32,152 nt of DNA from an uncultured Oscillospiraceae bacterium (GTDB taxonomy: Bacteria; Bacillota; Clostridia; Oscillospirales; Oscillospiraceae). Location of the stretch: positions 1 to 32,152 of the forward strand of contig CALXDR010000012.1 of the NCBI GenBank assembly GCA_944387115.1, written 5' to 3'. The position numbers and the translations under genes are program-made. Of this stretch, positions 12,066 to 31,074 are shown piece by piece. The notes beneath the pieces were generated by a model, which saw only the letters and a list, made by a program, of their open reading frames with translations, did no database searches and was not told the origin of the DNA. Position 1 is the first letter of the stretch. Each line of letters starts with the position of its first letter.

Positions 12066-12506
12066 ATGAATCTGCATGAACTCTCTCCCGCTCCCGGTTC
12101 CACTCAGGTGGGCAAGCGCAAGGGCCGTGGCCCCGGCACCGGTAACGGTAAGACTGCCGGCCGTGGCCACAAGGGCCAGAAGGCTCGCTCCGGCGGCGGT
12201 GTCCGCATTGGCTTCGAGGGTGGTCAGATGCCTCTGATCCGCCGTCTGCCCAAGCGCGGCTTCAACAACATTTTCGCTCAGCGCCTGGAGGCTGTGAATG
12301 TGGCAGCCCTCAACAAGTTTGAGGATGGCGCCACTGTGAACGTCTGCGACCTGCTGGAAAAGGGTATCCTCTCCAAGTGTGAGTACGGCGTCAAGATTCT
12401 CGGCAACGGCGAGCTGACCAAGAAGCTCACTGTTCGTGCTTCTGCGTTCTCCGCCTCTGCGAAGGAGAAGATTGAAAAGGCAGGCGGGACCGCGGAGGTG
12501 ATCTGA
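12066..12506 (+). CDS. rplO: 50S ribosomal protein uL15
   Basis: 146 residues. The glycine- and lysine-rich N-terminal extension ([20 protein letters not shown]) winds through 23S rRNA, and the C-terminal globular domain follows. It is separated from secY by one base and precedes it in nearly all bacteria. Confidence 0.98.
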
Positions 12507-12507
12507 A

Positions 12508-13839
12508 ATGATTCAGACCATCCGCAACGCTTGGAAGGTGCAGGAGCTGCGCAATAAGCTGCTCTTCACCGTCTTCGCCCTGCTGATTTTCCGGGTGGGC
12601 TCCGCAATCCCGGTGCCCTTTATCGACACCCAGACCCTCAGCAACTATATGGACACTCAGTCGACCAGCATTTTCAGTCTGCTGAATGTCATGAGCGGCG
12701 ATGCGTTTGCTCAGGCGACGATTTTTGCACTGTCCATCCAGCCCTACATCAACAGCTCCATCATTGTGCAGCTGCTGACCATCGCCATTCCCGCCCTGGA
12801 GGCTCTCCAGCGTGACGGCGGTGAGGAGGGCAAGAAGAAGCTTGCTGCCATTACCCGCTATGTCACTGTGGCCTTTGCGCTCATCCAGGCCTTTGGTTAT
12901 TACACTTTCATCAATTACCAGGGCTTTGTGACCGAGGGTGTTTGGCCCGCCATTGTAATCATTGTGGCCTTTACCGCCGGCTCTGCCTTCGTCATGTGGC
13001 TGGGCGAGCAGATTACTGAGTTTGGCGTGGGCAATGGCATCTCCATCATTCTGTTCGGCGGCATCATTGCCCGCGGCCCCTCCATCGTGACCTCCATGGT
13101 CACCGGTGTGCGCAACTGGCTCAACGGCATCAGCTCCGACAGTGCGATGACTTTGCACCCCGTATTTGTCCCCCTGATTCTTATTGGTATGCTGCTGCTG
13201 GTGGTGCTGGTGGTGTTCATCACCAATGCCGAGCGCCGGGTGCCTGTGCAGTATGCCAAGCGGATGGTCGGCCGCAAGATGTACGGCGGTCAGTCCAGCC
13301 ATATCCCCATCAAGGTGAATATGTCTGGCGTGATGCCCATTATCTTTGCCCAGGCCATCGCCTCGCTGCCTGCTACCATTGGTATGTTTGTGCCCTCCGC
13401 GCACACCGAGGGCAGCGCTTGGAACACCTTCCTCAAGATTTTTGACTCCAATGGTGTGTTCTACTGCATTGTCTACTTCCTGCTGATTGTGCTCTTCAGC
13501 TACTTCTACAACAGCATCCAGTTCAACACCGTTGAGGTGGCCAACAACCTGAAGAAGAACGGCGGATTTATCCCCGGCTTCCGGCCCGGCCGTCCCACGG
13601 CTGATTTCCTGCAAAAGGTGGTGGGCCGTCTGACCCTGTTCGGCGCCCTCTATCTGGCGGTTGTGGCCCTGCTGCCCGCCATCACCGGAAACATCATGCT
13701 GCTGTTCGGCTCCAGCGCTGGCCGTTACCTGGCCATCGGCGGCACCTCCATCATCATTGTGGTGGGCGTTGCCCTGGAGACTGTGAAGACCCTGGAGGCC
13801 CAGCTGATGATGCGTCACTACAAGGGGTTCCTTGAGTAA
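12508..13839 (+). CDS. secY: Preprotein translocase channel subunit SecY
   Basis: 443 residues with ten predicted membrane helices. SecY forms the protein-conducting pore with SecE and SecG. Seen are the N-terminal AWKVQELRNKLLFTVFALLIF split over TM1, IQPYINSSIIVQLL of TM2, the cytosolic RRVPVQYAKRM loop that binds ribosome and SecA, and the C-terminal QLMMRHYKGFLE. Codon use is slightly less biased than in the ribosomal genes. The ATG lies one base after the rplO stop. Confidence 0.98.
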   Translation: MIQTIRNAWKVQELRNKLLFTVFALLIFRVGSAIPVPFIDTQTLSNYMDTQSTSIFSLLNVMSGDAFAQATIFALSIQPYINSSIIVQLLTIAIPALEALQRDGGEEGKKKLAAITRYVTVAFALIQAFGYYTFINYQGFVTEGVWPAIVIIVAFTAGSAFVMWLGEQITEFGVGNGISIILFGGIIARGPSIVTSMVTGVRNWLNGISSDSAMTLHPVFVPLILIGMLLLVVLVVFITNAERRVPVQYAKRMVGRKMYGGQSSHIPIKVNMSGVMPIIFAQAIASLPATIGMFVPSAHTEGSAWNTFLKIFDSNGVFYCIVYFLLIVLFSYFYNSIQFNTVEVANNLKKNGGFIPGFRPGRPTADFLQKVVGRLTLFGALYLAVVALLPAITGNIMLLFGSSAGRYLAIGGTSIIIVVGVALETVKTLEAQLMMRHYKGFLE

Positions 13840-13857
13840 TTGGAGAAGGTGAACCGT

Positions 13858-14490
13858 ATGAAGATGATTCTGCTCGGCGCCCCCGGCGCCGGTAAAGGCA
13901 CTCAGGCGGCGGTTCTCAGCGAAAAGCTGGGAATCCCCGCCATCTCCACCGGGAATATTCTCCGTGCCGCTGTGAAAAACGGCACCCCGGTGGGACTTCA
14001 GGCCAAGAGCTATATGGATGCCGGCAAGCTGGTGCCCGATGAGGTCATCATCGGCATTGTGGCCGAGCGTCTGGCTGAGGCTGACTGCCAGAAGGGCTAT
14101 ATCCTGGACGGCGTGCCCCGTACCATCGCCCAGGCTGAGGCACTGGAGCAGGCGGGTGTGGTGTTCGACAATGTGCTGTCCATTGAGATTTCCGATGAGG
14201 AGATTATCCAGCGCATGGAGGGCCGGCGGTTCTGCCAGGCCTGCGGCGCCACTTACCACGTCAAGAACGCTCCCCCCAAGGCGGAGGGCGTGTGCGACAA
14301 GTGCGGCGGCGCGCTGGAGCTGCGGGATGACGACAAGCCCGAGACCGTGAAGCGCCGCCTGGAGGTATACCACCAGGAGACTGAGCCCCTCAAGGACTTT
14401 TATGCCCAGCGGGGCGTGCTGCGCACGGTGGACAATCAGCCTACCATTGAGGCCACCACCCAGGTGGTTATGGCGGCACTCAAGCTCTGA
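13858..14490 (+). CDS. adk: Adenylate kinase, zinc-LID type
   Basis: 210 residues. It converts ATP + AMP to 2 ADP in the cytoplasm. The P-loop [10 protein letters not shown] is at residues 7-16, the AMP-binding region [17 protein letters not shown] follows, and the LID carries CQAC...CDKC, the four-cysteine zinc site of Gram-positive enzymes. An in-frame TTG at 13840 would add six residues, but ATG at 13858 gives the family start MKMILLGAP and lies after GGAGAAGG. A four-base interval joins it to map. Confidence 0.97.
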
Positions 14491-14493
14491 GCT

Positions 14494-15258
14494 ATGGAAC
14501 TGATTACCCTCAAATCGTCCAGAGAACTGGACTGTATGCGCAAGGCCGGGCGAATTACCGCGGCAGCCCGCAAGCTGGCGGGAGAAATGGTGAAGCCCGG
14601 CGTCACAACCCTTGAGATAGATACCGCAGTGCGCAAGTTCATTGAGAGCCAGGGAGGGAAACCCTCCTTCCTGGGCTACCACGGGTTTCCCGGTTCGGCG
14701 TGCATCTCGGTGAATGACGTGGTCATCCACGGCATCCCCTCCAAGCGGGTGGTGCTGAAAGAGGGCGACCTGGTCAGCGTAGATGTGGGAGCCTACATCG
14801 ACGGTTTCCACGGCGACTGCGCCGCTACCTTTGCCTGCGGCGAGGTGTCCGCTGAGGCCAAACGGCTGATCGAGGTCACCGAGCGCAGCTTCTGGGAGGG
14901 CATCCGGTTTGCCAGAGCCGGCCAACGTGTGTCTGACATCTCCCATGCTGTGCAGCAGTATGTGGAGCGCCATGGGTTCTCCGTGGTGCGGGACTTTGTT
15001 GGTCACGGTGTGGGTGCGAAGCTCCATGAAGCGCCGGAGGTGCCCAATTACGGGCCTGCCGGCCATGGGCCCCGGCTCCAGCCGGGCATGACTTTGGCGA
15101 TTGAACCGATGGTGTGCCAGGGTGACTGGCAGGTCAAGGTGCTCCGGGACGGCTGGACCACCGTGACGGCGGACGGCTCACTGGCCGCCCACTACGAAAA
15201 CACCATTCTCATCACCGACGGCGACCCCGAAATCCTCACCCGATGCGGGGAGGATTGA
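14494..15258 (+). CDS. map: Methionine aminopeptidase, type I
   Basis: 254 residues. It removes the initiator methionine from nascent proteins. All metal-centre residues are visible: D97, D108, H171, E204 and E235, with the substrate histidine H79 in HGIPS. The ATG lies three nt after the adk stop without a clear Shine-Dalgarno sequence, so translation is probably coupled. secY-adk-map is the standard order in Firmicutes. Confidence 0.97.
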   Translation: MELITLKSSRELDCMRKAGRITAAARKLAGEMVKPGVTTLEIDTAVRKFIESQGGKPSFLGYHGFPGSACISVNDVVIHGIPSKRVVLKEGDLVSVDVGAYIDGFHGDCAATFACGEVSAEAKRLIEVTERSFWEGIRFARAGQRVSDISHAVQQYVERHGFSVVRDFVGHGVGAKLHEAPEVPNYGPAGHGPRLQPGMTLAIEPMVCQGDWQVKVLRDGWTTVTADGSLAAHYENTILITDGDPEILTRCGED

Positions 15259-19477: not shown

Positions 19478-21319
19478 ATGGAAACGGAATTTCAACTGTC
19501 AAGGCAGGGAAAGACGGAGATGATTCTCCGCTATCTGCGCAAAAACCTGGTGTTTTTTGCCGCAGCGCTGTTCTGTGCCTGTCTGGGAATGGTGTTTAAC
19601 GCCATCACTCCTCAGATTATCCGGGTGACGGTGGACTCGGTGCTGGACACCCAGGAGCCCCAACTGCCCGCCTGGGCGGCGCAGTGGCTGGATGTGGAGT
19701 ACCTGCGGGCCAACCCCCTTCAGGCGCTGTGGCTGGCGGCGGGCGCAGTGGTGGCGGCGGCGCTGCTGCGCTGTGTGTGTACCTATGGACAGCGGGTGAG
19801 CCTGTCCAAGGGTTCGGAGGGGTTTGTCAAGGCCATTCGGGATGATCTCTACCGCCACATTCTCCACCTGGATTTCGCCTGGCACACCGCCCACTCCACC
19901 GGGGACATCATCCAGCGGTGTACTTCGGATGTGGACGTCATTCGGAACTTTGTGTGCAACCAGCTGGTGGAGGTGGTGCGCACGGTGTTCCTCATTTTGC
20001 TGTATGTGGGCATCATGGTGTCCATGAACCCCCGGCTGGCTGTGGTGTCCGTGGTGTTCATCCCCATTGTGGCGCTGTTTTCCGGGGTGTTTTACAGGAA
20101 GATTTCCTCCCGCTTTCAGGTGGCGGATGAGGCGGAGGGAGAGCTGACCACCGCTGCGCAGGAAAACTTCACCGGCGTGCGGGTGGTGCGGGCCTTTGGC
20201 CGGGAGCAATACGAGGAGGAGCGCTTCCAGCAGCGCAATGAGCGCTTCTCCCAGCTGTGGATTCGCCTGGGCAGGCTGATGGCGGTGTACTGGGCCACAG
20301 GCAATGTGCTCACAGCGCTGCAGGTGATGGTGGTCATCCTCCTGGGTGTGGCGGAGACGGTAAACGGGAATATGTCCCTGGGGGCCTTCATGGCCTTTGT
20401 CAGCTACAATCAGGCGCTGTCCTGGCCGGTGCGCACCCTGGGCCGGGTGCTGTCCGACATGAGCAAGGCGGGGGTGTCCATGGACCGTGTGGGCTACATT
20501 CTCAATGCCCCGGAGGAGGAGGACGTGCCCGAGGCCAAGGCGCAGGATTTGCAGGGGGACATTGTCTTTGAGCACGTCACCTTTGGCTACCAGGGGCAAA
20601 AGGTGCTGGACGATGTGTCCTTCACCATTCCGGCGGGGAGCACCTTCGCCATTCTGGGCGGAACGGGGTCGGGAAAGAGCACCCTGGTGCATCTGCTTGA
20701 CCGCCTGTACGACCTGAAGGAGGGGGAGGGGCGCATTACCATCGGCGGGGTGGACATCCGCCATATCCGCCGGGAAAGCCTGCGCCGTCAGATTGGCCTG
20801 GTGCTCCAGGAGCCGTTTTTGTTCTCCCAGACCATCGGGGAGAACATTGCCGCCACCCGTCCGGGGGTGGAGGAGGCGGAGGTGCGCCATGCAGCCATGG
20901 TGGCCTGTGTGGATGAGGCCATTACAGAGTTCCAGGACGGATATGACACAGTGGTGGGGGAGCGTGGCGTCACCCTGTCCGGCGGGCAGAAGCAGCGGGT
21001 GGCCATTGCCCGTATGCTCATGCAGCAGGCCCCTGTGATGGTGTTTGATGACTCCCTGTCCGCCGTGGATGCGGAGACAGACGCCAAAATCCGCGCGGCA
21101 CTCCGCCATGAGATGGAGGGGGCCACCGTCATTCTCATTGCCCACCGGGTGACCACCCTGATGCAGGCAGATCAGATTTTGGTGCTGGATGAGGGACGGG
21201 TTGCGGACATGGGGACCCACAGCCAGCTCATTGCCCGCCCGGGCATCTACCGTGAAATCTATGACATCCAGATGAGCAGCGACGACCGCCGCTTGCTGGA
21301 GGAAGGAGGGATGGCCTGA
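19478..21319 (+). CDS. ABC exporter, degenerate half (BmrC/TM287-like)
   Basis: 613 residues: six membrane helices (about residues 20-310) fused to an ATP-binding domain. Walker A GGTGSGKST is at 394-402, the signature LSGGQ at 500-504 and the H-loop histidine at 556. The Walker B segment VMVFDD ends in D525 where a catalytic glutamate is expected. That substitution marks the degenerate-site subunit of heterodimeric exporters such as BmrC, TM287 and LmrC. The product would pump drugs, peptides or lipids outward with its partner; the substrate cannot be read from sequence. The ATG follows AAAGGAG, and the stop overlaps the next ATG by one base. Confidence 0.93.
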   Translation: METEFQLSRQGKTEMILRYLRKNLVFFAAALFCACLGMVFNAITPQIIRVTVDSVLDTQEPQLPAWAAQWLDVEYLRANPLQALWLAAGAVVAAALLRCVCTYGQRVSLSKGSEGFVKAIRDDLYRHILHLDFAWHTAHSTGDIIQRCTSDVDVIRNFVCNQLVEVVRTVFLILLYVGIMVSMNPRLAVVSVVFIPIVALFSGVFYRKISSRFQVADEAEGELTTAAQENFTGVRVVRAFGREQYEEERFQQRNERFSQLWIRLGRLMAVYWATGNVLTALQVMVVILLGVAETVNGNMSLGAFMAFVSYNQALSWPVRTLGRVLSDMSKAGVSMDRVGYILNAPEEEDVPEAKAQDLQGDIVFEHVTFGYQGQKVLDDVSFTIPAGSTFAILGGTGSGKSTLVHLLDRLYDLKEGEGRITIGGVDIRHIRRESLRRQIGLVLQEPFLFSQTIGENIAATRPGVEEAEVRHAAMVACVDEAITEFQDGYDTVVGERGVTLSGGQKQRVAIARMLMQQAPVMVFDDSLSAVDAETDAKIRAALRHEMEGATVILIAHRVTTLMQADQILVLDEGRVADMGTHSQLIARPGIYREIYDIQMSSDDRRLLEEGGMA

Positions 21320-23148
21320 TGGCTGCCTTTGACGAACAGGAATATACCAAATCCTTTGACCTCTCCCTGTGGAAGCGGCTGTTTTCCATGATGAAGGGCT
21401 TCAAAGCGGTCATTGTGGGGCTGCTGCTCTTCAACACCCTGGAGGCGGTGATGGATGTGGTGCTGCCCCTCTTCCAACGCTATGCCATTGCCAACTTCAT
21501 CGGGGCGGGCACGGTGGCGGGTCTGCTCCCCTTTGGCCTGGTCTATCTGGGGGCAATTCTCTTCCATGGGCTGTGCTCCGTGGGGTTTGCCCGCAGCTGT
21601 ATGTACCTGGAGATGAATCTGGCCCAGAGCCTGCGGCAAAAGCTGTTTCACCATCTTCAGACCCTCTCCCTGTCCTTTTACAACGTGACCCCGGTGGGCT
21701 ATCTCATTGCCCGGGAGATGAGCGACACCAACAAAATCGGGGGCATGATGTCCTGGGAGATGTCGGAACTGCTCTGGTCAATCTGCTACGTGGGGGGCGC
21801 ATTCCTCTCCATGCTGCTGCTCAACTGGCGCCTGGCGCTGGTGGTGATGGCCATTGTGCCCGTGCTCGCCCTGCTCACCGGATATTTTCAGGGGAAAATC
21901 CTCCACTATAACCGGCAGCTGCGCAAGCTCAACTCTAAAATCACCGGCGCCTTCAATGAGGGCATTACAGGGGCAAAGACCGCAAAGACCCTGGTGGTGG
22001 AGGAGCAGAGCTGGGAGCGCTTTCGGGGCGTGACCGGGGAGATGCATGACGCCGGTGTGCGGGCCGCCCGGCTCAATGCGGTGTATGTGCCGCTGATTCT
22101 CTTTTTCTCCTCGCTGGCGGTGGCCATTGTACTGCTGCGGGGTGGGAGCATGGAGGTGGAGCAGGTGCTGGAGATTGCCACCTTATCCACCTTCCTGTCC
22201 TATGCGGTGGGAATTTTCGAGCCCATTCAGGGGATTGCCTCCAAGCTGTCTGAGTTTATCTCGGTGCAGGCCTCCATCGAGCGGGTGCTGGGGCTGCTGG
22301 ATGAACAGCCCCAGATTGCAGACACCCCGGAGGTGGTGGAGCGCTACGGCGACGCCTTTCACCCCAAAAAGGAGAACTGGGAGCCTCTGCGGGGGGAAAT
22401 TGAGTTTCGCGACGTGACCTTCCGCTACCCGGACGGAGGGGACAATGTGCTGGAGCACTTCTCCCTCCACATCCCCGCCGGAACCACTGTGGCCATTGTG
22501 GGGGAGACGGGGGCGGGCAAGTCCACGCTGGTCAATCTGGCCTGCCGGTTTTTTGAGCCCACCCAGGGGCAGATTCTCATTGACGGACGGGACTACCGGG
22601 AGCGCAGCCAGCTTTGGCTCCACTCCAACATCGGCTATGTGCTGCAAAATCCCCACCTGTTCTCCGGTACGGTGCGGGAGAACATCCGATATGGGCGGCT
22701 GGACGCCGCAGAGGAGGAAATTCAGGCTGCCGCCCGGGCGGTGTCGGCAGACGGCGTGGTGGCCAAGCTGGAGCAGGGCTGGGACACCAATGTGGGCGAG
22801 GGGGGCGACCGCCTGTCCACCGGGGAGAAGCAGCTGATTTCCTTTGCCCGTGCCGTGCTGGCAGACCCCCGTATCTTTGTGCTGGATGAGGCCACCTCCT
22901 CCATTGACACCCAGACCGAGCAGTTTATTCAGCAGGCCATTGACCACCTGCTGAAGGACCGCACCTCCTTCCTCATTGCCCACCGCCTGTCCACCATCCG
23001 CAAGGCGGATTTGATTCTGGTGGTGAAGGACGGGCGCATTGTGGAGCAGGGCACCCATTTGGAGCTGCTGGGCCGCAGGGGATACTACCATGACCTGTAC
23101 AGCAAGCAGTTTGCCGAGGAGAGCGCTGCACGGGTGCTGGGAGAGTAA
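21319..23148 (+). CDS. ABC exporter, catalytic half (BmrD/TM288-like)
   Basis: 609 residues with six membrane helices and an ATP-binding domain. Walker A GETGAGKST is at 395-403, and Walker B ends in D523-E524 with the catalytic glutamate present. The signature is changed to LSTGE (499-503) instead of LSGGQ. This is the exact complement of its partner: the degenerate site is formed by the D525 Walker B of the first protein and the altered signature of this one, and the second site is canonical. One-base overlap with the upstream gene suggests equal synthesis. It could be a multidrug exporter, inferred from family and regulation only. Confidence 0.93.
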   Translation: MAAFDEQEYTKSFDLSLWKRLFSMMKGFKAVIVGLLLFNTLEAVMDVVLPLFQRYAIANFIGAGTVAGLLPFGLVYLGAILFHGLCSVGFARSCMYLEMNLAQSLRQKLFHHLQTLSLSFYNVTPVGYLIAREMSDTNKIGGMMSWEMSELLWSICYVGGAFLSMLLLNWRLALVVMAIVPVLALLTGYFQGKILHYNRQLRKLNSKITGAFNEGITGAKTAKTLVVEEQSWERFRGVTGEMHDAGVRAARLNAVYVPLILFFSSLAVAIVLLRGGSMEVEQVLEIATLSTFLSYAVGIFEPIQGIASKLSEFISVQASIERVLGLLDEQPQIADTPEVVERYGDAFHPKKENWEPLRGEIEFRDVTFRYPDGGDNVLEHFSLHIPAGTTVAIVGETGAGKSTLVNLACRFFEPTQGQILIDGRDYRERSQLWLHSNIGYVLQNPHLFSGTVRENIRYGRLDAAEEEIQAAARAVSADGVVAKLEQGWDTNVGEGGDRLSTGEKQLISFARAVLADPRIFVLDEATSSIDTQTEQFIQQAIDHLLKDRTSFLIAHRLSTIRKADLILVVKDGRIVEQGTHLELLGRRGYYHDLYSKQFAEESAARVLGE

Positions 23149-23394: not shown

Positions 23395-23423
23395 TTGCAT
23401 TTTTGCGGGAAATCGTATATCAT
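23395..23423 (+). promoter_or_regulatory. Promoter of the c-di-GMP phosphodiesterase gene
   Basis: TTGCAT at 23395-23400 and TATCAT at 23418-23423 are 17 nt apart. The 65-nt leader contains a hairpin (23442-23449/23460-23467, one G-U) before the AAGGGGGA ribosome binding site. The leader does not carry the conserved core of a c-di-GMP riboswitch. Confidence 0.7.
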
Positions 23424-23495
23424 TACACTGTGTCAGAATGTAAACACTCGCAGGAAAACGGGTGTTTGGAAACCATCATTGAAGGGGGATGCCAG

Positions 23496-25787
23496 ATGGG
23501 GACTAATCAAGCCGCGCAGGGGATAGAGCGGAAAAATCCTCTCTACATGGTTATCGCAACATTGATTTGCGCGGCATTTGTGATTAGCGGACTGGTGTTT
23601 GTCATACGCATGATGCGCCTGAGTGTGGCGGAGAATTCAAGCTACCTGATTAACTCCGCCGGGGAGCGCCGGGAGACCATTTCACGCCAGATTCAAGGGG
23701 ATTTGCAGACCTTGCGGGGGCTGTCCACCTGCCTGGCGGAGATGGACGATCTGCAATCTGACCAGATTACGCGGGTCCTGCAGGAAATCAACATGGAAAA
23801 CCGCTTTATCCGCATGGGGGTTGCCAACCTCAGCGGTGAACTGCTGCTGTTCGCTATCAACGGGGATACCTACCAGTTGAATGTGGCGGAGGAGCCGTTT
23901 TTTCTCCAGGCACTGCTGGGGGAGGAGACTGTATCGGGCACCAGACTGGATTCACAGCGTGAGGGAGTATACATCAACTACTTCGCAGTGCCCGTGTGGA
24001 ATGAGGAGGAGGTATCCGGGGTGCTGGTGGCGGTGCATGAGACCTATGTGCTGCGCAGCATTCTGGACCAGCCGCTGATGAATGGGGAAGGCGCCTCCAG
24101 CATCGTGAACAAAAACGGGCAGATGGTGGTGCGCACCCTGGATGAGGGATTCCAGCAGGTGCTTACCCTGGATGATTTGCAGTGGGAGAGCCAGCAGGAG
24201 CGGGATAAGGCCTATGCCGCCCTCAACCGGGACGAGGAGACCACCTTCCAGTGTCAGGTGGAGGGCGTGACCATGCTGGGCGCCCTGCTGCCGGTGCACA
24301 TCAACGACTGGTACGTGCTCAGCACCATCCCCGTGGAGGCCCTTCAGGGGCGCTACAGCCAGACGGCGGCGGGTATGACAATCATCATCGTGGCGGCAGG
24401 GGCGCTGTTTGTGGCGCTGATCTATATGCAGCGGCGCACCATGATTCGCAGCCAGAAAAAGCTGTACGACCTGGCCTATCGTGACGAGCTGATTGGCTGC
24501 CCCAACTTTCAAAAGTTTCAGCTGGATGCCTCTGGCCGGGTGAAGCATGGCGACTGGGTGGTGTGGTACTGCGACCTGAAGAACTTTAAGTACTACAACG
24601 ACGTGTTCGGCTACCAGAAGGGGGACGAACTGCTGCGGCGGGTGGCCCTGCTCATCGAGGAGAATATGCAGCCGGAAGAGCTGTTCTGCCGGGTGTCTGC
24701 GGATAACTTTGTGGGGCTGCGTGTAGACCGGGGCCGGGAGGAGATGGAGCAGTGGTTCAGCGCCATGGCGGAGACCCTGCGCCGGGAGGAGCAAAAGCGC
24801 TCCAACCAGATGAATGTGGAGCTGTCCATGGGTGTGTACCGGGTGGACGGTGCGGAGGATACCCTGACCATCAACGATATGGTGGACCGGGCCAACATGA
24901 CCCAGAAGTCCATCAAGGGCCTGCCCGGAAGCCGCATGGCATTGTACACGCCCCAGCTGCGGGAGCGCAGCCTGCTGGCCACCTCCCTGTCTGCGGAAGG
25001 GGAAAGCGCCATCTGGAGCGGTCAGTTCCAGGTGTACTTCCAGCCGAAGGTGGGCATCCAGCAGGGGGACACCGTGGTGGGGGCCGAGGCGCTGGTGCGC
25101 TGGCAGCATCCCCAGCGGGGCATCATTCCCCCCAATGTGTTCATCCCTGTGTTCGAGGAGACGGGCCTGGTGGTGGATTTGGACCGCTATATGTTCTGGC
25201 AGGTGTGCCGCTGGTACAGCAATTACCTCAAGACGGGCCGCCCGCTGCTGAACATCTCCATCAATGTGTCCCGGCTGGGCATTTTCCGCAAGGATTTCCT
25301 GGAGTATTACACCTCGGTGAAGGAGGAGCACGGCATTCCCGACGGCGTGCTGGAGCTGGAGTTCACCGAGACGGTGGTGCTGGACGACGACCAGGCGTTC
25401 CAGGGGCTGGTGAATACCCTGCGTCAGCGCGGGTTTGTCTGCTCGCTGGATGACTTTGGGGCGGGGTACTCCTCCCTCAATATGCTCAAGAATCTGCCCA
25501 TCAATGTGCTCAAGCTGGATGTGCTCTTCTTCCGCAAGAGTCAGGATGCTCAGCGGGACCACATCGTGGTGAGCAACATCATCCACATGGCCCGTCAGCT
25601 GAACATCAACACTACGGCGGAGGGTGTGGAGAGCCCTGAGCTGGTGGAGTTCCTCCGCGGCGTGGGCTGTGATATGGTGCAGGGCTATGTATTCTCCAAG
25701 CCCATGCCCATGGCAGACTTTGATGCGCTGCTGGCCAGCGCAGGGGAGGGAGAACTGCCCTCCCTGGTGCCTACCAAGGCCGGGTAA
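23496..25787 (+). CDS. Membrane sensor c-di-GMP phosphodiesterase (dCache-like, degenerate GGDEF, active EAL)
   Basis: 763 residues from the ATG at 23496, six nt after GAAGGGGGA; an upstream in-frame ATG (23403) lies within the promoter and is rejected. Layout: TM1 at about 16-42, an extracytoplasmic domain to about 293 that fits a dCache sensor, TM2 at 294-313, a GGDEF-like domain at about 325-485, and an EAL domain at about 505-755. The GGDEF site reads SADNF (401-405), so cyclase activity is unlikely. The EAL domain keeps EAL (531-533), ELEFTE, DDFG (652-655), KLD and AEGVE (708-712), so it should hydrolyse c-di-GMP to pGpG. It is monocistronic, between its own promoter and a terminator. 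The ligand is unknown. Confidence 0.92.
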   Translation: MGTNQAAQGIERKNPLYMVIATLICAAFVISGLVFVIRMMRLSVAENSSYLINSAGERRETISRQIQGDLQTLRGLSTCLAEMDDLQSDQITRVLQEINMENRFIRMGVANLSGELLLFAINGDTYQLNVAEEPFFLQALLGEETVSGTRLDSQREGVYINYFAVPVWNEEEVSGVLVAVHETYVLRSILDQPLMNGEGASSIVNKNGQMVVRTLDEGFQQVLTLDDLQWESQQERDKAYAALNRDEETTFQCQVEGVTMLGALLPVHINDWYVLSTIPVEALQGRYSQTAAGMTIIIVAAGALFVALIYMQRRTMIRSQKKLYDLAYRDELIGCPNFQKFQLDASGRVKHGDWVVWYCDLKNFKYYNDVFGYQKGDELLRRVALLIEENMQPEELFCRVSADNFVGLRVDRGREEMEQWFSAMAETLRREEQKRSNQMNVELSMGVYRVDGAEDTLTINDMVDRANMTQKSIKGLPGSRMALYTPQLRERSLLATSLSAEGESAIWSGQFQVYFQPKVGIQQGDTVVGAEALVRWQHPQRGIIPPNVFIPVFEETGLVVDLDRYMFWQVCRWYSNYLKTGRPLLNISINVSRLGIFRKDFLEYYTSVKEEHGIPDGVLELEFTETVVLDDDQAFQGLVNTLRQRGFVCSLDDFGAGYSSLNMLKNLPINVLKLDVLFFRKSQDAQRDHIVVSNIIHMARQLNINTTAEGVESPELVEFLRGVGCDMVQGYVFSKPMPMADFDALLASAGEGELPSLVPTKAG

Positions 25788-25850
25788 CGAGGGGTACAGC
25801 CGGAGCCTCCATTGGGGGCGCTCCCGGCAGATATAGACTTGTGCAAAGCA

Positions 25851-25898
25851 AACATGGAGGCTGTAGACCGGCGGTCTACAGCCTCCATGTTGTGTTTT
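25851..25898. terminator. Bidirectional terminator between convergent genes
   Basis: A perfect 19-bp stem (25851-25869/25873-25891) with a 3-nt loop is followed by GTGTTTT on the plus strand. On the minus strand it is followed by a T-rich stretch (TTTGCTTTG). It would end both the phosphodiesterase gene and the minus-strand rlmB operon. Confidence 0.9.
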
Positions 25899-25900
25899 CA

Positions 25901-25935
25901 GGCGGGAACAGGGGGTGTGCCCGCCAGTTCCCGCC
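25901..25935. repeat. Second inverted repeat beside the convergent terminator
   Basis: Arms 25901-25909 and 25927-25935 (9 bp, perfect) flank a 17-nt loop. It lies just after the stop of the minus-strand gene (25949) and may add to termination from that side, but no T-run adjoins it. Confidence 0.45.
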
Positions 25936-25948
25936 CGGCGGGTTGTTG

Positions 25949-28018
25949 TCAGAACTGATCCACCCAGTTGGACAGGAGCAGCTGGGGCACCATCCACACC
26001 AGCATGAAGATGAGGAAGCTGGTGGTGGTGAGGGAGGCCCAGGCGCTCAGGGAGGTGAGATAGAAGGTGAGGGCCAGCCCCAACACAGAGCCCACCAGGG
26101 AAAAGACAATTCCCAGCCGGGTGGCGGTGCGCAGCCGCCGCCCGCCCACCACGGCGTCGGCAAAGACATTCAGACCCTCCCGGCATAGCAGCGCCACGGG
26201 GACCTGGCTGTGGGGCCGGTCGGTGCGGGACAGCTCCAGCCGGCGCTCCACCGGGGGGAACTCCAGCCGGTCCACGGGGAGCTTGAAGCGCTCCAGCAGT
26301 TCGGGAATCAGGTTGAAGTCCCGGGTGACCAGCACGGAGAACAGCCCCCCCTGGGTGATGGCGTGGAGGGCGGGGCTTACCCCGGAGGGAACGGAATACT
26401 GGAGGGGGAACATCCCCGCCAGCTGTCCGTCAATGGCGCAGAATACGGCGGTTTTGATGTTTAGTCCCTGGGGAAGGCTGACCTCCATCATGTGCATGAA
26501 GGCGGCGGTGCCCACTAAAATCTCCTGGTTGCGGATGACGCCGGAAACGCCGCCCTCATGGTAGCGCACCCCGCTCACCTCCCGGTAGAGTGCGCCCTGG
26601 GTACGCATGAGATCGTGGAAGGTGCGGGCGAGGCCGCAGTTGAGCACCCGCAGCAGGGTGGCGGTGTAGGCCACCACCTTTTCCGTGGACACCTGGCCAA
26701 AGACCTTGATTTGCCGCACCTGCACCGTGCCGGGGGGGAACAAGTCCAAATCGGTGGTGAGGATGCCCCCCGCCTGACAGCGCTCCACCCCGGGCCAACC
26801 CGCCAGAGCTGCGCCGCTTTTTTGCAGCCGGTTTGCCAGCCTGCAATAGGGCATGGCGTAGGAGAGGGTGGCGCTCCAGGCGGTGACGGCGGTGAGGCAG
26901 CAGGAGGCGCACCAGACAAACATCTCCGGCTTGCCCCGGCCCAGGGAGGCCATTACAGCGCACAGCAGCGCCCCCAGCAGGAGCAGGGGGGCGGCAATGC
27001 GGTAGGCCTTTTGCGCACCGTCCTCGTCCTGAAGCTGGCTGCCAAATTGTGCGGTGGTGCCCGACCACTTGGCATAGGCGGGCAGCCCGCTCCACTGCTG
27101 CTCATCCAGAGTGACCACATAGGGGGCGTTGGAGCGGGAGAGGGTTTTGGCGGATATGCGGTCGCCCCGGCGGCGCAGAAGGTTCCCCTGCTGCACCATT
27201 GCCACCCCGATGGAGATGACCGCCCCGCAGCTCAGGCCGGGCCGGGACTGGGCGGCAATCAGGTGGACGCTGTCCAGGGCTGTAAACAGCCAGGCAATGG
27301 CGGCAAGGGTATCCGGCCCCACCTGGAGGTGAAGCAGCCGCCCAAGCCCTCCGGTGAACACCTCGTAGCAGGCCAGTGCGGTGAGCACCATCAGCGCCAG
27401 AACCAGCACCTGGCGCAGTGTGGTGAGGGGCAGGGTGCCCAGCGCCCCCGTCCAGGTGAAAAACGGCAGGTCGATGGAGAGAATGGCGCAGGCCAGTGCG
27501 CACAAAAGGGCCAGGTTCTTGCGCAGATACATCCCATTCAGACCCTTTTGCAGCTGAGCGGCCAGCTGGGCGGGGGGGATGTCAGGGGGCATTTGCTCCG
27601 GTTTGCGGGGCTTGGGGGGGCGGGCGGCCGGCCGGGGCCGGCGGGGCGGTTCCCGCTCCTGGTCCACGCCGGGGACATACTTTTCCGCCTTCACCGTCTC
27701 TGTGTCCGGCTCGGCCTGGTCATACATATGGTCGGCATAGTGGTCGGCACGGCTGAGAAGGGTGGACAGGCGGGCTGCCAGGTTGCGCCGCACGCCTTTG
27801 GGCATAATCTCCCCCACCACCTGGGCGGCGGGAGGGCGGTCGGGGTGTTTGGGGCGGCTGTCCCCGTTGTCAGGCTCAGACTGGGAAAAGGCCACCACCT
27901 TGCTGCCGCCGGGCTTGCCGCTGGCGTACTTGCCGCTCCCGTACTCGGCCAAAATCTCCTCTACGGAGTAATCCCCGTCCTGGTTGGGGCCGCTGGGGCC
28001 TTTGTGCTGATCGGACAT
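25949..28018 (-). CDS. Membrane protein resembling a catalytically dead P1-type ATPase
   Basis: 689 residues. Residues 1-150 are a polar, proline-rich cytosolic tail with one ordered-looking motif, YSVEEILAEY (17-26). Predicted helices lie at about 167-186, 200-222, 233-256, 262-276, 339-358, 366-389, 634-655 and 663-683. The part between 389 and 630 follows the P1B-ATPase plan: RLQKSGAALAG after the sixth helix, then TTDLDLFPPG (421-430) where DKTGTLT is expected. An N-domain-like run, GGVSGVIRNQEILVGTAAFM (489-508), is followed by DGQLAG and SVLVTRD (561-567) where LTGDN is expected, and CREGLN (612-617) where GDGIND is expected. The actuator TGE and the metal-site CPC are absent. The fold assignment is inferred from these alignments by eye, and loss of pumping is inferred from the missing motifs. 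It is 20 nt downstream of rlmB. Confidence 0.7.
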   Translation of the reverse strand: MSDQHKGPSGPNQDGDYSVEEILAEYGSGKYASGKPGGSKVVAFSQSEPDNGDSRPKHPDRPPAAQVVGEIMPKGVRRNLAARLSTLLSRADHYADHMYDQAEPDTETVKAEKYVPGVDQEREPPRRPRPAARPPKPRKPEQMPPDIPPAQLAAQLQKGLNGMYLRKNLALLCALACAILSIDLPFFTWTGALGTLPLTTLRQVLVLALMVLTALACYEVFTGGLGRLLHLQVGPDTLAAIAWLFTALDSVHLIAAQSRPGLSCGAVISIGVAMVQQGNLLRRRGDRISAKTLSRSNAPYVVTLDEQQWSGLPAYAKWSGTTAQFGSQLQDEDGAQKAYRIAAPLLLLGALLCAVMASLGRGKPEMFVWCASCCLTAVTAWSATLSYAMPYCRLANRLQKSGAALAGWPGVERCQAGGILTTDLDLFPPGTVQVRQIKVFGQVSTEKVVAYTATLLRVLNCGLARTFHDLMRTQGALYREVSGVRYHEGGVSGVIRNQEILVGTAAFMHMMEVSLPQGLNIKTAVFCAIDGQLAGMFPLQYSVPSGVSPALHAITQGGLFSVLVTRDFNLIPELLERFKLPVDRLEFPPVERRLELSRTDRPHSQVPVALLCREGLNVFADAVVGGRRLRTATRLGIVFSLVGSVLGLALTFYLTSLSAWASLTTTSFLIFMLVWMVPQLLLSNWVDQF

Positions 28019-28038
28019 GGCACATCTCCCTCCCTGCG

Positions 28039-28824
28039 TCAGATGCGCTGGCGCACAGCTTCATAGAGCACCACTGCGGCGGCGGCAGAGGCGTTGAGGG
28101 AGTTGACCTTGCCCCGCATGGGGATGGAGAGCAGGAAGTCGCACTCCTCCCGCACCAGACGGCTCATGCCGTCCCCCTCGCTGCCGATGACAATGGCGGC
28201 AGGGCCCTTCAGGTCGGCCTGGTAGAGGGGGGTAGCGCCCTGGGCGTCGGTGCCGAATACCCACAGCCCCTCCTCCTTCAGCTCCTTGAGCAGGGCGGTG
28301 AGGTTGGGCACCCGGGCCACAGGCAGGTGGCTCACTGCCCCTGCGCTGGTCTTCGCCACAATGGCGGTCAGCCCCGCAGAGCGCCGCTTGGGAATGATGA
28401 CCCCGTGGGCGCCGGCGGCCTCGGCGGTGCGGATGACAGCGCCCAGATTGTGGGGGTCGGACAGCTCGTCGCACACCACCACCAGGGGTGGCTCCCCCTT
28501 TTCCCGGGCGGCGGCCAAAATGTCAGCCACGTCGGCATACTCCCGCACCGCCGCCACGGCGATGACCCCCTGGTGGCTCTTGGTGCGGCTCATGCCGTCC
28601 AGCTTGCGCCGGTCGGCCTCTACCACCACAATGCCCTTGCCCCGAGCGGTGGAGGCGATGTGACCCAGGGTGGCGTCTGTCTCCCCCCGGGCGATGTATA
28701 CCTTGTCCATGGCTGTTCCGGCTCGCAGGGCCTCAATGACGGCGTTGCGCCCCTCGATGAGGCCGTCTGCCACCGCCTGCTCCACATCGGCGGGGCGGGG
28801 CCGCCGGTGTTCCCGTTCTCTCAT
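28039..28824 (-). CDS. rlmB: 23S rRNA 2'-O-methyltransferase of the RlmB/TrmH family
   Basis: 261 residues. The N-terminal L30e-like RNA-binding part begins IEGRNAVIEALRAGTAMDKV, and the SPOUT knot domain has DPHNLGAVIRTAEAAGAHGV, then IGSEGDGMSRLVREECD and IPMRGKVNSLNASAAAAVVL: motifs 1 to 3 with the SAM-binding knot. By family it methylates Gm2251 (E. coli numbering) in the 23S P loop; a related site cannot be excluded. The longer frame to 28887 is rejected: ATG at 28824 lies eight nt after AAGGAG. Its promoter faces that of the sulfotransferase gene. Confidence 0.92.
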   Translation of the reverse strand: MREREHRRPRPADVEQAVADGLIEGRNAVIEALRAGTAMDKVYIARGETDATLGHIASTARGKGIVVVEADRRKLDGMSRTKSHQGVIAVAAVREYADVADILAAAREKGEPPLVVVCDELSDPHNLGAVIRTAEAAGAHGVIIPKRRSAGLTAIVAKTSAGAVSHLPVARVPNLTALLKELKEEGLWVFGTDAQGATPLYQADLKGPAAIVIGSEGDGMSRLVREECDFLLSIPMRGKVNSLNASAAAAVVLYEAVRQRI

Positions 28825-28906
28825 TGCTGCACGCTCCTTATCTAATCGTATGGCCTTTGCACAAGGCCGGGGTTGCAAACCTCCCAAGACAATGGGATAT
28901 CATCTT

Positions 28907-28912: not shown

Positions 28913-28991
28913 GCATAGATTCCCCGGAAACAAAAGGGGGGAAAGGAGGCCAGGTATAACAGGGAATTATCCATCCATAACTATGGGGAAG

Positions 28992-29020
28992 TTTACAAAG
29001 GCGGGTCCGCGGTGTAAAGT
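28992..29020 (+). promoter_or_regulatory. Probable promoter of the sulfotransferase gene
   Basis: TTTACA (28992-28997) and TAAAGT (29015-29020) are spaced by 17 nt. It diverges from the rlmB promoter by about 80 nt, so a shared regulator site could lie between. A small GGGG/CCCC hairpin at 29030-29043 falls in the leader. The -10 box is only four of six. Confidence 0.5.
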
Positions 29021-29078: not shown

Positions 29079-31025
29079 ATGAACAAGCCCATTGCAATGC
29101 TCTCAGCCGCCGCCCTGGCCCTGGGGATACTGTCCGGGTGCGGCCCTGCCGCCAGCGCCCCCAGTACAAGCCCCAGCGCCGCCCCGTCCCCCGCCGCCCC
29201 CCAGGAGAGCGCCCAGGCGGAGCAGGGGGTCTTTGCGCTCTCGTACAGCAACGTAAATTTTGACTTTTCCAAGGACATTGCCCAGCTGATGGACCAGACC
29301 CCTCTGGTGCCCCAGCAGGCAGACATTCCCCTCACAGTGGCAGATGAAAAGGGGGCTTCCGGGGTGATTTTGGTGCCCTCAGTCCGGGAGGACGGGGCAG
29401 GGGACTACTACCTCAATGCCCTGGTGGCGGGCAATGCCCTCCAGTTTACCGCCACGGCGGACATTGCCCGGGTGGAAAGCTCGGTGTCCGGCGGGGTGGA
29501 GGTGCAGGACAATGCCTTTTCTCTGGTGCCCGCCCCCATCGTGGTGGGCGCACAGGAACAGGAGGTCATCACCGTGACCATGGCCGACGGGCAGGTTTAC
29601 CGGGTACACACTGCCCATGAGCTGGCCCCTGTGCTCAACATCACCACCAAGCAGGTGGCAGAGGAAAACGCCGGTGTGTATGATTTTGCATTGGATAAGT
29701 TCCTGCTGCGGGTGAACACGGAGGGGGAGGTGGTGTATTACCGCAACCTGAACTGTGTGGGGGAGAAGATGGCGGAGAACTTTGCCCGCCAGGAGACGGC
29801 AGACGGCGACTTCTACACCACCTTTGTGGAGCTGAATGTGGAGTACCGCAACATGAACGGCGGATACTCCAGCGGCCTGTACCTGGTGATGGATGAAAAC
29901 TATGCCGATGTGGACACGGTGACCCTTCTGCCAAACGCAGAGGAGCACCACACCCATGGCGAGGGCTATCTGGATCAGCATGAGTTTGTGGTGCTGGGCA
30001 AAGGGCACTATCTGACCATGAGCTATACCCCCATGCTGGTGGAGAACCTGCCTGAGGGCGTGCAGGGCATTGACGGAGGTTCTTCTGCCTATGTGTGGGC
30101 GGGGATTTTCCAAGAGGTGCAGGACGGCAAGGTGCGCTATGAGCTCAACACCACAGACTACCCCATGCTCTACGAAACCGCCGTGGAGAAGCTGGACTAC
30201 GCCAACAGCACCGACCAGGGGATTGACGCCGAGGACCGCCAGGGTAATACCGTACACGTGTTCTCTGAAGGCTTTATGGACTATGTCCACCCCAACAGCA
30301 TCGACTATACCCTGGATGGACAGGGAAATGTGGACAAGCTGCTGGTGTCCATGCGTGACCAGTGCGCCGTGTACCAGTTTGACCTGGACACCGGAGCGGT
30401 GGAGTGGGTGCTGGGCGGCAAAGCCTCCACCTTTACCGGCTATGAGGCGTATGCCACCCAGCGCAAGGATGAAAAGGGTGTGGAATTCACCGCCCTCAGC
30501 TACGGGCAGCACGATGCCCGCTACCTGAATAAGAACGCCGACGGCACCCTCACCGGCAACCCCCGTATCAGTATGTTTGACAACCAGACCGGGGACGCCC
30601 CCTTCCGCATTGAACCGCCTGCCCCCACCATGGCCCCCAACCTCACCCGCACCTTGCAGGTGGAGCTGAATGTGGAGGACAAGACTGCCACGGTGTCCCA
30701 TGTCATCAACGGGGTGGATTTGAACGCACTCTCCCAGGGGTATCACATCGCCAGCCACTGCGGCAGTGTGGCCTATGACAACGACAACGCTGTGGTCATT
30801 GGCTGGGGTCTGCACGGCGTGGTGGACGGCATTGGTGCGGCGGCCCCTGCCGGAACCATTACGGACAAGGGGTATGAGGACCTGCGTCAGGGCAGCCGGC
30901 CTGTGTTCACCGAGTATGACCTGGAGCACGGCACCATCACCTTTGAGCTGTACGCCACCCGAAACCCCCTGATCCAAAGCCATGAGGCGCTTTTCTCCTA
31001 CCGCACTTATAAGAGCGGGAAGTGA
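29079..31025 (+). CDS. Arylsulfate sulfotransferase, surface lipoprotein
   Basis: 648 residues. The N-terminus is a lipoprotein signal with lipobox LSGC (C21) and a following Ala/Pro/Ser linker, so the enzyme should be anchored outside the membrane. The rest fits the ASST family, which moves sulfate from one phenolic ester to another phenol without PAPS. Candidate active residues are H301 (DQHEF), H404 (VHPNS), R426 (SMRDQ) and H478 (GQHDARYL). Their order and approximate spacing match E. coli AssT H252, H356, R374 and H436 (from memory), H478 being the sulfurylated one. AAGGAG precedes the ATG. No DsbA/DsbL-like partner is nearby. It is monocistronic with its own terminator. Confidence 0.88.
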   Translation: MNKPIAMLSAAALALGILSGCGPAASAPSTSPSAAPSPAAPQESAQAEQGVFALSYSNVNFDFSKDIAQLMDQTPLVPQQADIPLTVADEKGASGVILVPSVREDGAGDYYLNALVAGNALQFTATADIARVESSVSGGVEVQDNAFSLVPAPIVVGAQEQEVITVTMADGQVYRVHTAHELAPVLNITTKQVAEENAGVYDFALDKFLLRVNTEGEVVYYRNLNCVGEKMAENFARQETADGDFYTTFVELNVEYRNMNGGYSSGLYLVMDENYADVDTVTLLPNAEEHHTHGEGYLDQHEFVVLGKGHYLTMSYTPMLVENLPEGVQGIDGGSSAYVWAGIFQEVQDGKVRYELNTTDYPMLYETAVEKLDYANSTDQGIDAEDRQGNTVHVFSEGFMDYVHPNSIDYTLDGQGNVDKLLVSMRDQCAVYQFDLDTGAVEWVLGGKASTFTGYEAYATQRKDEKGVEFTALSYGQHDARYLNKNADGTLTGNPRISMFDNQTGDAPFRIEPPAPTMAPNLTRTLQVELNVEDKTATVSHVINGVDLNALSQGYHIASHCGSVAYDNDNAVVIGWGLHGVVDGIGAAAPAGTITDKGYEDLRQGSRPVFTEYDLEHGTITFELYATRNPLIQSHEALFSYRTYKSGK

Positions 31026-31074
31026 TAAAATACGGGGATAAACCGGGGGAAATGGCATAAAATCGGCGCACATT

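Follow-up and report, generated by a model that had tools for sequence, protein, structure and literature searches.

The transport cycle of P-type ATPases requires a phosphorylation site, an actuator domain, a hinge and ligands for the substrate. Among the described members of this family the P1B-1 copper-exporting ATPases, represented by CopA (PDB 3rfu), come closest to the protein analyzed here. Both have the same order of eight membrane helices, the same fold of the N-domain and the same position of the P/N insertion, but our protein lacks the actuator domain, the phosphorylation site, the hinge motif and the metal ligands, and a long disordered tail stands in place of the N-terminal metal-binding domain. 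A degenerate P-type domain is present in guanylyl cyclase beta of Plasmodium. That domain, however, is eukaryotic, of the P4-ATPase type and fused to the cyclase, whereas the protein described below is bacterial, stand-alone and of P1B descent. Searches of an open-access library brought up no stand-alone pseudoenzyme among the bacterial P-type ATPases, and none of the titles listed deals with a bacterial pseudo-pump.

The gene for this protein, which we call the pseudo-pump, lies in a window of 32,152 nucleotides, the whole stretch of DNA that was analyzed. A dead pump, paired with rlmB and kept by almost every sampled member of an order, provides a natural test of what the P-type scaffold is capable of in the absence of phosphorylation.

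Gene arrangement in the window

The pseudo-pump frame extends from an ATG at 28018 to a stop codon at 25949-25951 with no internal stop (Table 1), and a purine-rich run precedes the ATG. Plus-strand frames which cover the same bases (e.g., 26558-28066) were rejected since the homologue match is on the minus strand. The rlmB-like neighbour matches PF00588 with an E-value of 5.6e-46. Given the promoter-like site before this gene and the hairpin after the pseudo-pump gene, both being pattern matches only, rlmB and the pseudo-pump gene likely form a two-gene unit. The hairpin is nearly palindromic and could therefore serve both of the genes converging on it.

Table 1. Positions of the pseudo-pump gene, its parts and the adjoining features in the window.
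Feature	Position	Strand	Remarks
Pseudo-P1B-ATPase gene	25949..28018	-	689 codons
rlmB-like 23S rRNA methyltransferase gene	28039..28887	-	SpoU_methylase + SpoU_sub_bind; 20 nt upstream of pseudo-pump
Promoter-like site upstream of rlmB	28990..29018	-	pattern match only
Terminator-like hairpin 3' of pseudo-pump gene	25851..25891	. (listed on +)	19 pairs; pattern match
Cytosolic N-terminal tail, residues 1-159	27542..28018	-	mostly disordered in model
Tail motif YSVEEILAEY, residues 17-26	27941..27970	-	
Membrane helices 1-4, residues 160-285	27164..27541	-	helices in model; collinear with MA, MB, M1, M2 of P1B pumps
Short loop replacing actuator domain, residues 286-336	27011..27163	-	family median 55, range 45-80
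Membrane helices 5-6, residues 337-388	26855..27010	-	model and alignment; CPC position reads TAW (379-381)
DKTGT position, reads TDLDL (residues 422-426)	26741..26755	-	profile alignment
N-domain, residues 432-545	26384..26725	-	fold kept (model, Foldseek); G490, G503 nearly invariant
TGD position, reads TRD (residues 565-567)	26318..26326	-	profile alignment; D567 in 109/112
Deletion point of GDGxND hinge segment, between residues 602 and 603	26212..26213	-	profile alignment
C-terminal stretch with membrane helices 7-8, residues 613-688	25955..26182	-	W675 at MxxSS site, 106/112

The gene on the other side of the hairpin (23403-25787, plus strand), which converges on the pseudo-pump gene, encodes a protein with Cache-like, GGDEF and EAL domains, a domain set of c-di-GMP signalling. 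Two ABC exporter half-transporter genes are found side by side at 19478-23148 (plus strand), and a gene of the arylsulfotransferase (ASST) family (29079-31025, plus strand) is divergent from rlmB. The window also contains long antisense frames on the minus strand at 12427-15066 (879 codons), 23952-26186 (744 codons) and 29379-31073 (564 codons). The latter two have no Pfam match, and the long antisense frames are probably chance frames.

Descent from P1B-type pumps and loss of the pumping parts

Searched alone against Pfam, the window protein gave nothing better than an E-value of 0.23, and its match to the CopA model PRK10671 is weak (residues 430-569, E 1.9e-5). A profile of 37 members of the family searched against the PDB sequences returned the copper efflux ATPase 3rfu as top match (E 5.4e-28), and a profile–profile alignment by hhalign, in which 112 members were set against 16 P1B proteins from the same class, gave a probability of 100 and an E-value of 2.3e-41 over 620 columns. 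When the 37 members were scanned singly, 14 matched PRK10671 (best 2.9e-16), ten TIGR01525 (best 1.1e-11) and nine the Zn/Cd model PRK11033 (best 1.3e-6); the P-type models of Pfam were matched by none of them at 0.01.

An AlphaFold model of the full protein, built from 10 sequences, has a mean pLDDT of 61.8. The rerun on residues 150-689 was worse in the cytosolic part (mean pLDDT 57.3) and we therefore preferred the first model, relying solely on its helices and its N-domain, as the remnant of the P-domain is unreliable in both. A Foldseek search with this model yielded 43 PDB chains at E<=1e-3, by title all of them P-type ATPases, and the top ten are P1B. Over the whole model the TM-scores of these ten are low (0.28-0.36 of the query length); the N-domain superposes on the N-domain of HMA6 with TM-scores of 0.77 and 0.76 of the target length. 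The preliminary description of this locus had called the protein P1-type ATPase-like, and the profile–profile match together with the fold search bears this out: the structure comparison leads to P-type ATPases, the N-domain fold is present, and there is no convincing match of the window protein to any unrelated family. The protein is thus almost certainly a pseudo-pump of P1B, copper-type descent. Alignment and model agree that the eight-helix order with the cytosolic N-domain between helices 6 and 7 is present.

The profile alignment of the 112 members with the P1B proteins allowed us to read the motif positions in the window protein. Gaps are found at the positions of TGE and GDGIND, the CPC position has been replaced (Table 1), the SEHP position reads LNCG (residues 459-462), the YN position reads GS (residues 643-644), and at the MxxSS site W675 replaces the first Ser. 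None of the motifs DKTGT, CPC, EHP, TGD and GDGxND is found at its place in any of the 112 members, with a few members being partial, and the tripeptide TGE occurs at scattered places in seven of the 112 shortened actuator loops. The reference pumps have TGE, DKTGT, CPC, TGD and GDGxND in all 16 cases and SEHP in 14. The possibility that homologues keep DKTGT, which would have made the window protein a decayed copy, is therefore not borne out. Given an uncertainty of one residue in the alignment D423, present in 88/112 members, could occupy the phosphorylation site; in either register the Lys, Thr, Gly and Thr expected next are lost. We also considered whether DLDLF might be the DxD motif of a HAD phosphatase and rejected this, as the two Asp residues are present in 88 and 79 of the 112 members, respectively, and the remaining catalytic set is gone. 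Since phosphorylation site, actuator, hinge and ligands are all missing, a P-type cycle cannot run, and, judged from its sequence, the protein is unable to perform the pump cycle.

These results also change the preliminary description in several respects. CREGLN, which had been taken for the hinge, aligns to the stretch after it, while the hinge itself is deleted between residues 602 and 603. A role as metal sensor on the old site is not supported, for want of ligands: the window protein no longer has CPC, YN or MxxSS, CPC is found in 0/112 members although its middle Pro persists in 80, and no position in the membrane helices has a Cys or His in 40 or more of the 112 members. Finally, the statement that every catalytic motif has been lost is correct for the motifs as written and incorrect for single residues, as D567, G490 and G503 are nearly invariant. 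The best conserved residues among the 112 members are G503 (111), D567 (109), G490 (108), W675 (106) and Y541 (102), and in the profile alignment G503 is located at the GN position, D567 at TGD and G490 at GxG.

Conservation in the order and linkage to rlmB

A match to the pseudo-pump was found in 57 of 60 relatives. In the sampled order, which is apparently the Oscillospirales, 112 of 117 genomes at least 90% complete have the gene at E<=1e-40, one copy each; one member (G388) is split over two contigs and was counted once, and another (G386) is truncated by a contig end. In-frame stops within the match occur in five of the 112 members, including G057 with its broken frame. Among the genomes scored as lacking the gene, G349 has rlmB and, behind it at the end of a contig, the start of a gene that bears the tail motif. 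The near-complete genomes G374, G426, G394 and G343 have neither a pseudo-pump nor an rlmB match at E<=1e-30, and the same holds for the less complete G025 and G034. This joint absence in six genomes may reflect assembly gaps or a loss of both genes together; for G374 and G426, which belong to the same genus, loss is favoured.

In a sample of 293 genomes of the class, 14 of the 15 genomes of the order match with E<=5.2e-85 over most of the profile. Comparable matches are absent from the 278 genomes of other orders, where the best among the matches listed reaches 5e-35 and the listed matches of this kind are confined to the P1B core (about columns 340-660). This search scored up to three candidates per genome, and a very divergent member elsewhere might escape it.

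Eight pairs of members were used for the calculation of dN/dS. The core has values of 0.13-0.29 in six close pairs and the tail 0.22-0.31 in the same six, and the core values of the other two pairs are 0.39 (a nearly identical pair) and 0.51 (a distant pair with 43% identity). All eight are below 1, and the pseudo-pump gene is under purifying selection. The pseudo-pump is a core membrane protein of these bacteria, and its copy in the window has no Pfam match of its own. As the gene is retained under selection, it must have some other use than pumping, and a protein which nearly all sampled relatives keep without its pumping parts is most likely a non-pumping membrane scaffold or sensor.

The rlmB gene lies upstream on the same strand at 103 of the 112 loci, so that the adjacency noted before for the window alone is conserved throughout the order. 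The gap between the two genes measures between -4 and 63 nt at 84 of the 103 loci and is exactly -4 nt at 13 of them. The gap of 1106 nt in G057 is explained by the broken frame, the motif-bearing first part of the gene lying in between. Eight of the nine loci without rlmB have 92 nt or less of upstream sequence, which is too little to judge, and the ninth, G037, has a different gene at this place, presumably Obg-like as named by eye. At three loci an extra gene of about 254 codons is located between rlmB and the pseudo-pump gene (L002:5204-5968, L010:2552-3316, L014:452-1216). On the downstream side there is no constant partner across the 112 loci; the commonest cluster comprises 23 genes, which we take by eye to be EF-G-like.

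The N-terminal tail and possible functions

The cytosolic tail had been described as 150 disordered residues added to the pump. A disordered tail is indeed present, with a pLDDT below 50 for residues 1-74 and 108-143, but its length is about 159 residues. We did not find a metal-binding (HMA) domain in it. Tails of at least 113 residues are present in 100 of the 112 members, and in the remaining 12 the tail is nearly absent (0-21 residues), at least two of these being cut by contig ends. Many tails contain a motif of the type [FY][ST][VIL][DE][DE]ILAE[FY], predicted to form a short helix. This expression, which was composed after the sequences had been seen, matches 50 of the 100 tails of 30 or more residues, whereas 100 shuffles of all tails gave 0.57 matches on average and three at most.

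In a pattern search of the genomes 22 of 35 matches fell into pseudo-pump genes (two of them contig-end fragments) and 13 elsewhere; the reversed control gave three. Of the 12 of these 13 that were inspected, two are tails of membrane proteins (LspA and an ABC-2 permease) and ten are of other kinds; the thirteenth lies on contig 19 of G182. A wider pattern survey, in which 50 loci (30 + 20) out of a larger number of matches were inspected, revealed a similar motif in other membrane proteins. Two genomes have it at the LspA C-terminus (PF01252; L260:2488-3357, L302:1449-2231; an example is YSLEDILAEFRDI) and three at the YceG/MltG N-terminus (PF02618; L287-L289; L287:1-1554); it is likewise present at the N-terminus of ABC-2 permeases, two of which were checked with Pfam (PF01061; L257:2427-3749, L295:3-1532) while a third (L299) is cut off. 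It is also found in the C-terminal tail of a membrane protein that has a cadherin-like domain (PF12733; L095:1459-2868), and L261 resembles this protein with no Pfam match. Many other matches are internal stretches of soluble proteins, which by eye we take to be SecA, EF-Ts and MurC. In a wider sample the motif was present in 0/30 LspA C-termini and 0/30 YceG tails, and a single internal match was located inside a YceG domain (L334). We therefore rejected the idea that LspA and YceG are generally marked by this motif; its sharing with other membrane proteins is sporadic and restricted to single lineages.

Most members have a long tail, and its recurrent motif is occasionally shared by other membrane proteins; for these reasons we favour, with a confidence just short of even, a scaffold or receptor in the membrane to which the tail would attract at least one soluble partner. 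A copper-type P1B-ATPase was long ago converted into a non-pumping membrane protein by excision of the actuator domain and of the hinge part of the phosphorylation domain, with retention of the eight-helix order and the N-domain; the motifs for phosphorylation, hinge, metal ligands and contact with adenine, among them the nucleotide-binding SEHP, have disappeared from the whole family. The membrane bundle and the N-domain would then form a fixed platform, and the tail, often via the short predicted helix, would bring the soluble partner or partners to the membrane. Such a putative scaffold or receptor would serve envelope- or translation-linked machinery. A precedent comes from other Firmicutes, where KhpB (EloR/Jag) recognises the cytosolic N-terminal region of the membrane protein MpgA/MltG according to passages of PMC12542702; for the pseudo-pump tail and its motif this may serve as an analogy only. 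The short motif could be used as bait for fishing out the binding partner. Half of the tails do not contain the motif in the form given and 12 of the 112 members are nearly tailless, so the tail cannot be the sole function of the protein. A bolder form of this idea, which we consider less likely than not, is that throughout the order a copper-type pump became a core membrane hub that no longer pumps and that the docking code of its tail was independently gained by LspA, YceG/MltG and ABC-2 permeases of single lineages, so that one cytosolic protein would gather the envelope machinery.

What counts against a scaffold is that the best conserved residues, located in the N-domain and at TGD, fit ligand binding at least equally well. 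The main rival is for this reason a ligand or nucleotide sensor, in which the N-domain and D567 would still bind a ligand, ATP or some other, without hydrolysing it, and would signal to the helices or the tail. The near invariance of G490, G503 and D567 at the GxG, GN and TGD positions is what such a sensor would call for. SEHP, however, has been lost (EHP in 0/112), the window protein has nothing that corresponds to the first Gly of GxG, just 37/112 members retain the Asn of GN, and the glycines of the N-domain may be kept for the fold alone. We regard this reading as unlikely.

The linkage described above raises the question of whether the pseudo-pump cooperates at the membrane with RlmB, or with some other protein encoded in the operon, and thereby couples the membrane to rRNA modification or to the assembly of ribosomes. 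The position of rlmB upstream at 103/112 loci, often with an overlap of 4 nt, and the absence of both genes together from six genomes are consistent with this. But the joint absence may go back to one deletion or one assembly gap, G037 has a pseudo-pump without rlmB upstream, neighbours in an operon need not interact, and RlmB is widespread in bacteria that have no pseudo-pump gene. A partnership of this kind seems quite improbable to us.

Slightly more improbable still is a passive transporter, a channel or a non-catalytic subunit of a transporter which would use the old helix bundle without ATP. The retained eight-helix order and the polar residues R166, D236, R630, R634 and N636, located within or at the ends of helices and present in 42-62 of the 112 members, would suit such a role; the metal ligands, on the other hand, are gone, a Trp occupies the MxxSS site in 106/112 members and no transporter gene constantly adjoins. 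A decayed copy of a metal pump, which the lost motifs and the in-frame stops in 5/112 members might suggest, is scarcely credible, and the earlier view that the gene is intact rather than decaying holds, as DKTGT is found in 0/112 members, the 689 codons are open, dN/dS is below 0.3 in the six close pairs, the gene order is conserved and 112 of 117 genomes retain the gene.
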